This document shows, piece after piece, positions 2,724 through 4,679 of a stretch of 47,184 nucleotides of DNA. Position numbers and translations under genes: made by a program. Location of the stretch: positions 1 to 47,184 of the forward strand of contig JAIUOS010000029.1 in the NCBI GenBank assembly GCA_020161755.1, in the 5' to 3' direction. The notes below the pieces were generated by a model, which ran no database searches, was not told the origin of the DNA, and saw nothing but the letters and a program-made list of their open reading frames with translations. The stretch comes from Actinomycetota bacterium. GTDB lineage: Bacteria; Actinomycetota; Actinomycetes; Propionibacteriales; Propionibacteriaceae. How positions within the stretch are numbered: position 1 is the first letter of the stretch; each line of letters begins with the position of its first letter.

Positions 2724-3359
2724 ATGCCCCGAGCGGTCCTCAGCCGAACCGCGATCGTCGACGCCGCGTTCGACCAGCTCGCCGAGGGCGGGCTGGAGTC
2801 GATCACCGCCCGCGCCCTCGCCCAGCGGCTCGGCGTCCAGGCCGGCGCGCTCTACTACCACCTGGCCGACATGACCGCCCTCCGCGACGAGATGGCCAGC
2901 CGCATCGTCGCCCGGATGCTGGCCGGCGCCGGCGGTGAGCCCGGGGTCGACTGGCGGACGCTCCTGCGCACGATCGCGCACCGGGTGCGTTCGCTCCTCC
3001 TGGAGTACCGGGACGGCGCCCGCGTCGTGTCCGGCACCCTGCTCACCGACGACGACGCCCTGCGTGCCCTGGAGGCGCCGCTCGCCGCCCTGGTCGCCGA
3101 CGGCTTCACGCCGCTGGACGCCCAGCGCGCGCTGGCCACGGTGAACGCCTTCGTCATCGGCTACGTGATCGAGGAGCAGCAGCGTCTCGCCCAGGGCACC
3201 CGCCGTTACACCGCCGAACAGCGGCGCGCCCGGCTCGACCCCGACGCCCAGCCGCTGAGCTACGCCCTCAGCGCAGAGGTGGTCGACCTGCCCGAGCAGG
3301 CCTTCGAGTGGGGCGTCGAGGCACTGGTGGCCGGCATCGGGGCGCACGCCGCCCGCTGA
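2724..3359 (+). CDS. TetR family transcriptional regulator
   Basis: A 211-residue one-component repressor. Residues 1-50 form the TetR helix-turn-helix (AIVDAAFDQLAEGGLESITA, then LAQRLGVQAGALYYHLADMT, with the LYYHLADK-like recognition helix). The rest is an all-helical ligand and dimerisation domain resembling TetR_C of tetracycline-repressor type (LLLEYRDGARVVSGTL; AFVIGYVIEEQQRL). The start MPRAVLSR at 2724 is chosen because GGGAGAGAG lies just upstream and the longer in-frame start would run through the operators. It is divergent from the broken oxidoreductase gene, and two identical-half-site palindromes lie between them, so it very probably represses both. The inducer is unknown. Confidence 0.92.
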   Translation: MPRAVLSRTAIVDAAFDQLAEGGLESITARALAQRLGVQAGALYYHLADMTALRDEMASRIVARMLAGAGGEPGVDWRTLLRTIAHRVRSLLLEYRDGARVVSGTLLTDDDALRALEAPLAALVADGFTPLDAQRALATVNAFVIGYVIEEQQRLAQGTRRYTAEQRRARLDPDAQPLSYALSAEVVDLPEQAFEWGVEALVAGIGAHAAR

Positions 3360-3406
3360 CCGCCCTCCGGGACCCGCCCGAGCGTTCCCAGGATGCGAGA
3401 CCCCGG

Positions 3407-3437
3407 TTGTGAGCTCCGGGCCGCGTCCGCCTACCCT
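3407..3437 (+). promoter_or_regulatory. Candidate promoter of the Cys-rich leader ORF
   Basis: TTGTGA (3407-3412), a 19-base spacer, then TACCCT (3432-3437). The -10 lies six bases before the ATG at 3444, the spacing expected of a leaderless transcript. Confidence 0.5.
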
Positions 3438-3443
3438 TGTCCC

Positions 3444-3515
3444 ATGAGTTCGAACCGGGCGCGCGTCGTCGCCGTCGCCATGGTTCGGGGTTGTTGTTGT
3501 CGAATGTCGCGCTGA
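3444..3515 (+). CDS. Cys-rich leader peptide (polycysteine attenuator type)
   Basis: A 23-codon ORF beginning ATG AGT TCG and ending at TGA 3513-3515. Its C-terminal part reads VRGCCCRMSR: three consecutive TGT cysteine codons next to Arg residues, just before the stop. There is no ribosome binding site and TACCCT lies six bases upstream, so translation is probably leaderless. Leaderless polycysteine short ORFs are known in mycobacteria (Ms5788A-type leader peptides) as cysteine-responsive attenuators: ribosome stalling at the Cys codons changes expression of genes downstream. The next 75 bases are C-rich and G-poor on the coding strand, as a Rho-dependent site would be. The first gene downstream is a 64-residue ORF, not a known cysteine or sulfate gene. 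Assignment rests on composition, position and leaderless start. Confidence 0.72.
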   Translation: MSSNRARVVAVAMVRGCCCRMSR

Positions 3516-3593
3516 CGTTCCCACCAACCCACCAGCCGCACTCCTGACCCGCGCCCTCCGCGCGCGCCTGCGGCCAACCCCGAGGACTCCGAC

Positions 3594-3788
3594 ATGGCCC
3601 TTCTCATCGAACCCAGCCACCACACCACCGCCGCCCGCCGACACCCTGCGGCCTTCACCGCAGCCGTGCACCTGGTGCCCGCCGGCGGCGTCCTGGTCTT
3701 CCCCGGCGCCCCGGACGGCATCGCGCCGCCCGCCCAGCTCGGGCCGATGATGAGCCCGCCCGGTCGCGAACGCCTGTTCGGCCGCTGA
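3594..3788 (+). CDS. Small hypothetical protein downstream of the Cys leader
   Basis: A 64-residue ORF starting at ATG 3594, with GAGGA about eight bases upstream (CCGAGGACTCCGACATG). The product begins MALLIEPSHHTTAARRHPAA, has a hydrophobic centre (AVHLVPAGGVLVFPGAPDG) and a Pro/Met-rich end (LGPMMSPPGRERLFGR). It has no cysteine, signal peptide or recognised domain. Its position 78 bases after the polycysteine leader stop, with its own ribosome binding site, makes it the obvious gene controlled by that leader. It could instead be a decayed remnant of a longer sulfur-metabolism gene. The antisense frame is also open here but lacks protein character. Confidence 0.45.
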   Translation: MALLIEPSHHTTAARRHPAAFTAAVHLVPAGGVLVFPGAPDGIAPPAQLGPMMSPPGRERLFGR

Positions 3789-3808
3789 ACCGCGCGCCTC
3801 GCCGGGGT

Positions 3809-3814
3809 TAGGCT
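3809..3814 (+). promoter_or_regulatory. Candidate -10 element of the SDR gene
   Basis: TAGGCT with seven bases before the ATG at 3822 and no ribosome binding site: a leaderless-type start. Confidence 0.4.
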
Positions 3815-3821
3815 GGCCGGC

Positions 3822-4679
3822 ATGCCACGCGTTGTCGTCACCGGGGCCGGCGGAAAGCTCGGCCAGGTCGTCGTCCGTCACCTCGCCGAACACGGCTACG
3901 AGGTCGCCGCCACCGACCGGACGCCGCCCCCGCCCGACCTGCCGGGGACCTGGACGCGCGCCGACCTGACCGACCTCGGCGCGGTGGTCGAGCTGCTCAC
4001 CGGCGTCGACGACCGCTACGACGGGGTGGACGCCGTGGTGCACCTGGCCGCCATCCCGGCGCCCGGGCTGTTCACCAGCGGCGTCACGTTCGCCAACAAC
4101 GTGCCGGCCACGTTCAACGTGTTCCAGGCCGCCCGGATCGCCGGCATCAAGAAGGTGGTCTGGGCCTCCAGCGAGACCGTCCTCGGCCTGCCGTTCGACG
4201 AGCCGCCGCCCTACGTCCCGGTGGACGAGGAGTACCGCGTCCGCCCGAACTCCACCTACTCGCTCGGCAAGGCCGCCGAGGAGGAACTCGCCCATCACTT
4301 CGCGCGCTGGGACCCCGGGGTGTCGATCATCGGGCTGCGGTTCTCGAACGTGATGCTGCCGGCCGACTACGCGGCCTTCGCCGGCTGGCAGGACGACCCG
4401 TCCGCCCGCCGCTGGAACCTGTGGGGCTACATCGACGCCCGGGACGGCGCCCAGGCCGTGCGGCTGGCCCTCGAAACGCCCCTGACGGGCTTCGAGGCGT
4501 TCATCATCGCCAACGCCGACACGGTCATGGAGCGGCCCAGCGCCGACCTGGTCGCCGAGGTGTTCCCCGACGTCGAGGTCCGCGGTGCCCTCGAGGGCCG
4601 AGAGACCCTGCTGGGCATCGACAAGGCGCGGCGCCTGCTCGGCTACGCGCCCGCCTACTCCTGGCGCAGCGAGGCGTAG
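3822..4679 (+). CDS. NAD(P)-dependent epimerase/dehydratase family protein (extended SDR)
   Basis: A 285-residue extended short-chain dehydrogenase, probably acting on a sugar or nucleotide sugar in the cytoplasm. The N-terminal Rossmann motif is TGAGGKLGQVVVRHL (family GxxGxxG), followed by AATDRTPP at the end of strand 2 and DAVVHLAAIPAPG at strand 4. The catalytic Tyr-Lys pair is in NSTYSLGKAAEEEL, and WASSETVLG supplies the active-site Ser region. The C-terminal part (WGYIDARDGAQAVRLAL) is typical of NAD-dependent epimerase/dehydratases. The ATG at 3822 has no ribosome binding site but a -10-like TAGGCT at leaderless distance. It overlaps psuG tail to tail by 25 bases. Substrate cannot be told from sequence alone. 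Confidence 0.88.
   Translation: MPRVVVTGAGGKLGQVVVRHLAEHGYEVAATDRTPPPPDLPGTWTRADLTDLGAVVELLTGVDDRYDGVDAVVHLAAIPAPGLFTSGVTFANNVPATFNVFQAARIAGIKKVVWASSETVLGLPFDEPPPYVPVDEEYRVRPNSTYSLGKAAEEELAHHFARWDPGVSIIGLRFSNVMLPADYAAFAGWQDDPSARRWNLWGYIDARDGAQAVRLALETPLTGFEAFIIANADTVMERPSADLVAEVFPDVEVRGALEGRETLLGIDKARRLLGYAPAYSWRSEA

Follow-up and report, generated by a model that had tools for sequence, protein, structure and literature searches.

A putative leaderless polycysteine attenuator with an unusual target gene in a member of the Propionibacteriaceae

The DNA considered here is a stretch of 47,184 nucleotides (the window) from the genome of a member of the Propionibacteriaceae. On its forward strand is a short leader ORF (3444-3515), consisting of 23 codons and a TGA stop, which encodes the peptide MSSNRARVVAVAMVRGCCCRMSR and ends in CCCRMSR. 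The three cysteines are specified by tandem TGT codons (3492-3500, forward strand), followed by CGA ATG TCG CGC TGA. Among 25 long window ORFs picked by base composition, 8 of the 74 Cys codons are TGT and 14 of the 764 Arg codons are CGA. A -10-like hexamer, TACCCT (3432-3437, forward strand), ends exactly 6 bases 5' of the leader ATG, and no Shine-Dalgarno sequence was seen in the sequence before that ATG. The initial annotation had described such an ORF, with its tandem Cys codons near the end, its missing ribosome binding site and its hexamer, and all of these are present as described. A second in-frame ATG at 3393 gives a 40-aa ORF with a C-terminal end identical to that of the leader ORF.

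The leader is followed by a spacer of 75 nt (3516-3590, forward strand) that contains 41 C and 16 G, in agreement with the C-rich, G-poor composition originally ascribed to it. A Shine-Dalgarno-like GAGGA (3582-3586, forward strand), with an aligned GGACTC block that is invariant in five copies, precedes a 64-aa ORF (3594-3788, forward strand), the likely regulated gene. Next comes a gene of the NAD-dependent epimerase/dehydratase family (3822-4679, forward strand; Pfam PF01370, E 4.3e-26), which may be the second gene of the unit. As initially stated, no cysteine, sulfate, sulfurtransferase or other sulfur gene is among these two behind the leader in the window.

The leader stop is the only one in the window, on both strands, that ends an ATG ORF of 10-45 codons with CCC within the last 12 residues. 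Dinucleotide-shuffled windows contain a mean of 0.05 such ORFs, and 38 of the 40 shuffles contain none.

A DNA search of 30 genomes of the genus yielded six copies of the leader in five genomes: G000 (the window genome), G001, G015 (two copies), G018 and G019. One more genome, G157, belongs to another genus, which brings the total to seven copies in six of the 198 family genomes. The pattern C-[CR]-C-R-M-S recovers all six genus copies together with one match inside a long frame in G003. Across the 198 family genomes it matches 17 places in 16 genomes, ten of them new, and one of the new places is the short leader of G157, MHTTSWPLGSALVAVRAMMCCCRMSA. The G003 match and the other nine, which lie in long frames or in frames without a near start, were not counted as leader copies; the partial G480 of a separate search was left out. 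A stricter pattern that includes the stop codon occurs at five places in 4 of 391 genomes of the order, every one a known leader copy. All seven copies use TGT for the last Cys and CGA for the Arg. The comparison with related genomes that had been proposed as a check found that relatives keep the short ORF and its tandem Cys codons close to the stop; across species the start, the stop, the Cys codons and the position of the hexamer are conserved. The leader, spacer and ribosome site of the window also align with those before the sulfur genes of congeners.

Further upstream, the block TTCCCAGGATGCGAGAC (3385-3401, forward strand) is partly conserved in a MAFFT alignment 5' of all six genus copies. 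It occurs once in the window, where 0.75 occurrences are expected by chance when up to 3 mismatches are allowed; that it might be an activator site is a guess. An intact CCCRMSR leader in G015 (L027:7805) is an orphan, without the conserved spacer end, ribosome site or a gene behind it.

In 13 hand-picked leaders that start with ATG, the distance from the end of a [CT]ANNNT hexamer to the ATG is 6 or 7 nt. Two leaders before MetN-like genes have a hexamer of the [CT]ANNNT type six nt before an in-frame GTG, in a comparison that left out the G016 and G017 leaders at contig ends. Because the leaders of this survey were hand-picked, a blind count of short ORFs was made, restricted to ATG starts and with no selection for the hexamer, at the window, L001-L079 and L161-L226, with L080-L160 left out. 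A TANNNT with its end 6-7 nt from the ATG was found for 18 of 72 Cys-tail short ORFs and 18 of 4586 others, and a [CT]ANNNT at that distance for 22 of 72 and 108 of 4586, respectively, in a sample where Cys motifs or sulfur genes were the reason for fetching many of the loci and each nested start of an ORF is scored separately. The ATG-only blind count is the figure to trust, since the hexamer had already been considered when the GTG starts of the two MetN-like leaders were picked, which makes that part circular. A leaderless mode of transcription, starting at the leader ATG or right beside it, is a prediction that the sequence supports well.

Sulfur genes follow the leader in G001, in G018, behind the first copy of G015 and in G157. 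In G001 and G018 a TQXA/thioester-domain protein comes first, then the SrpI-like shell protein of a type 2A encapsulin (E 9.5e-96). Further along the operon are a cysteine desulfurase-like aminotransferase class-V protein, whose N-terminus is long and rich in Pro, and a cysteine synthase-rhodanese fusion; the proteins scanned against the families were those of G001. Behind the first G015 copy lies the gene of a TudS-related protein, with an E of 9.2e-36 and a score of 122.8 bits that does not reach the curated cut-off of 130; a close relative of it follows the G018 operon. The gene behind the G157 leader encodes a Cys/Met-metabolism PLP enzyme.

Other Cys leaders of the genus are found before a rhodanese gene that is itself ahead of encapsulin and desulfurase genes (G025 and G026), before cysK operons (G003, G004, G007, G011 and G029), before the cysteine synthase-rhodanese gene of G026 and before a MetN-like transporter (G001 and G019). 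On the minus strands of L207 and L225, RMCCR leaders whose in-frame GTG lies six nt downstream of TACGGT or TACCGT are followed by a MetN-like ABC transporter gene. The minus strands of L182 and L196 carry leaders that are very short or have a double Cys run (MLFHTCCCL and MFKTAVASVCCCAMPSAACCRMR) before cysteine synthase genes, with a TANNNT seven nt upstream.

Type 2A encapsulin loci were read in 11 of the 12 matching family genomes, a fragment in G137 being left out; in G019 and G180 the upstream part was shorter than 1.1 kb. Leaders lie 5' of the encapsulin gene in G001, G018, G025 and G026. A candidate leader in G080 is found about 4.3 kb 5' of the encapsulin gene, heading thioredoxin-, cysK- and rhodanese-like frames, and its hexamer ends 8 nt before the ATG, outside the 6-7 nt range. 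Polycysteine leaders head operons of type 2A encapsulin and cysteine desulfurase-like genes at L026:6216-11800, L028 (minus strand, from 13504), L074:5127-8085 and L078:609-3910, from four congeners, and there is a further candidate in L072. The TQXA/thioester-domain protein at L026:6367-7779 and its L028 homologue head the encapsulin operon, and no signal peptide was evident in them by eye.

A similar arrangement occurs in another genus of the class, g43, which might, as a guess, be Mycobacterium. All seven g43 encapsulin loci read (L161-L167) have a polycysteine leader with a hexamer, divergent from the encapsulin gene. A TQXA-like gene, recognized by eye from an RTDLIRLNP stretch, stands behind the leader in all seven, and a cysK-like gene is next in all five loci where the listing resolves it. 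A both-strand count found no Cys-tail short ORF with a hexamer in the remaining 9 of the 16 class loci; Cys-rich short frames in five class loci were taken by eye as coding-frame noise. The leader-encapsulin neighbourhood extends beyond the genus of the window, and its presence in seven of seven g43 loci makes it less new. No paper tying encapsulins to leader peptides or attenuation was found in the literature searched, which included the accessible parts of PMC8049743 and PMC8346489. From the genes behind the leaders in the congeners, G157 and g43, the sulfur link of this type of leader is clear.

The 64-aa ORF has no match in Pfam or NCBIfam, and the protein alone is modelled by AlphaFold with a mean pLDDT of 62.1. 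A homologue with 52% identity over 63 positions is found in G019, a genome with a listed contamination of 9%. There, too, it follows the leader, and it is monocistronic within the stretch read; the epimerase/dehydratase gene does not lie behind the leader there. Over 58 codons the two sequences differ at 21, 17 and 32 first, second and third codon positions, with dN 0.43, dS 1.18 and dN/dS 0.36, which suggests apparent purifying selection between the two species. A search with both copies placed the gene in 2 of 195 family genomes with no further convincing member; 12 of the 14 matches, which are partial and lie in other frames (E 6.8e-5 to 0.01), were dropped. The regulated target had initially been called apparently new, which is right for this genome and one congener but not for the leader in general, as congeners have sulfur genes behind it.

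The idea that the 64-aa ORF derives from the TQXA protein was considered and rejected. In six comparisons, each with 200 shuffles, the similarity was mostly no better than for shuffled sequences, with the score reached by 186, 98 and 1 shuffles for the G000 ORF and by 11, 98 and 95 for that of G019. The single suggestive value came from the G000 ORF and the G170 protein, and the G019 copy does not repeat it.

The C-minus-G excess of the spacer is equalled in 0.083% of the 75-nt stretches on both strands of the window, and no terminator-like site was found in the leader-spacer region. The absence of an intrinsic terminator there goes together with a C-rich spacer that would suit Rho and fits a candidate Rho-loading site. 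The predicted RNA fold of the leader region is unremarkable (z -1.33). A hairpin attenuator of the trp type was rejected on this value, the lack of a terminator-like site with a T run and an unfavourable covariation term. A search of 3300-3850 against Rfam gave nothing above the gathering score, only three sub-threshold snoRNA matches.

Canestrari and colleagues reportedly described polycysteine leaderless sORF attenuators of mycobacteria in 2020. Leaderless short ORFs with tandem Cys codons near the end and ahead of an operon were found in mycobacteria (Shell et al. 2015, PMC4633059, in the part available). The leader described here is likewise a short, putatively leaderless ORF whose last part carries tandem Cys codons, but it differs in its CCCRMSx tail, in having the 64-aa gene as its target and in having no cysteine or sulfur gene behind it. 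In Mycobacterium, P. acnes and B. longum, according to the part of the source available, Cys leader peptides have Cys codons in runs close to the stop, a spacer with candidate Rho sites and no terminator hairpin that is conserved; Rho-dependent attenuation via ribosome pausing was proposed for the cys leaders (Seliverstov et al. 2005, PMC1262725). The present leader shares all three features, whereas those leaders precede cys operons or cbs. The anatomy of leader and spacer fits that type of attenuation; for M. smegmatis, a review reports attenuation (PMC9031893, in part).

The g43 leaders resemble the Mycobacterium cys operon leaders of 2005, as far as that source was available (PMC1262725), and, like the one in the window, have a leaderless-type hexamer, a Cys-rich tail and, in most cases, a C-rich spacer. 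The encapsulin gene is divergent from the g43 leaders, whereas it lies downstream on the same strand in G001 and G018. In the available part of PMC8079986, a leader before metNIQ of S. lividans is leaderless and ends in ARCMCRRMCAF; its authors see a methionine- and threonine-rich peptide. Its Cys/Arg/Met tail is akin to that of the genus RMCCR leaders before the MetN-like gene.

The leader is probably a leaderless cysteine-responsive attenuator with the 64-aa gene as its target. Judging from the hexamer, transcription would start at or beside the leader ATG, and ribosomes would translate the 23 codons. If Cys-tRNA is plentiful, the ribosome would finish and leave, exposing the C-rich spacer, and Rho would stop transcription before the 64-aa gene. 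With scarce Cys-tRNA the ribosome would pause at the three rare TGT codons and cover the spacer; the 64-aa gene would then be transcribed and translated from its own GAGGA site. Since such an attenuator opens when Cys-tRNA is scarce, the 64-aa protein would be made in cysteine or sulfur shortage.

The initial annotation had likewise proposed a leaderless polycysteine attenuator. Conservation of the leader, its Cys codons, hexamer placement and ribosome site, the enrichment of the hexamer, the base bias of the spacer, which fits a Rho site, the lack of an intrinsic terminator, the apparent purifying selection on the 64-aa ORF and the sulfur genes of relatives all argue for it; we infer the transcript start, Rho dependence and cysteine response. 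Counting against it are the orphan G015 leader with no gene, the upstream in-frame ATG at 3393, the fold (z -1.33), the restriction of the 64-aa gene to two of 195 family genomes with no sulfur link of its own, and a dN/dS from only two sequences and 58 codons. The leader appears to belong genuinely among the leaderless polycysteine attenuators; its target is unusual and unstudied, and its control by cysteine is presumed.

A less likely explanation is that the leader is a relic of a sulfur operon lost from this genome, of which the leader, spacer and ribosome site are left, the 64-aa ORF being in decay or fortuitous. The intact orphan leader in G015 would agree with this, as would the rarity of the 64-aa gene and the MAxLIE start common to the 64-aa ORF and the G001 TQXA protein. 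No type 2A encapsulin was found in G000, which is about 96% complete, and the cysteine synthase of the operon has only a generic 44% match there. However, the 64-aa ORF is retained in two species with a dN/dS of 0.36, its ribosome site aligns with those of relatives, and its similarity to TQXA proteins is mostly at the level of shuffled sequences.

Translational control by the leader is improbable. The first bases of the RNA (3446-3451) would pair with the ribosome site (3584-3589), which a paused or queued ribosome would free. At least six pairs are possible in five of five aligned copies, with a predicted pairing probability of 0.7-1.0 for most pairs. However, the helix shows wobble changes only and no compensatory ones, with an unfavourable covariation term of +2.64. 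Control ribosome sites (263 cases) pair equally well in 5.7-23.6% for these copies and in 36-96% for eight other leaders, which do not share the pairing. A modelled paused ribosome failed to free the site, and adding a queued one gave partial release in three of five copies. A chance ORF without function is very hard to credit: GC-rich DNA commonly holds short ORFs, but conservation across species, with sulfur genes behind, extends to the start, the stop, the Cys codons and the position of the hexamer, and only 0.05 such ORFs are expected per shuffled window.

With the attenuator as the preferred reading, the 64-aa gene may, tentatively, encode an undescribed small protein that is produced when cysteine is short and that has, in this lineage, replaced the TQXA/encapsulin or TudS-type sulfur genes behind a modular cysteine attenuator exchanged among sulfur genes. 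The leader would extend cysteine-codon attenuation to a group where the leader signature reveals a likely regulon of encapsulin 2A operons, cysK, the MetN-like transporter and the TudS-related pair. It would connect sulfur encapsulins to the supply of Cys-tRNA and points to an unstudied small protein that cysteine shortage would switch on.

Elsewhere in the window, a perfect inverted repeat with arms of 26 nt and a loop of 2 nt lies between genes at 994-1047.
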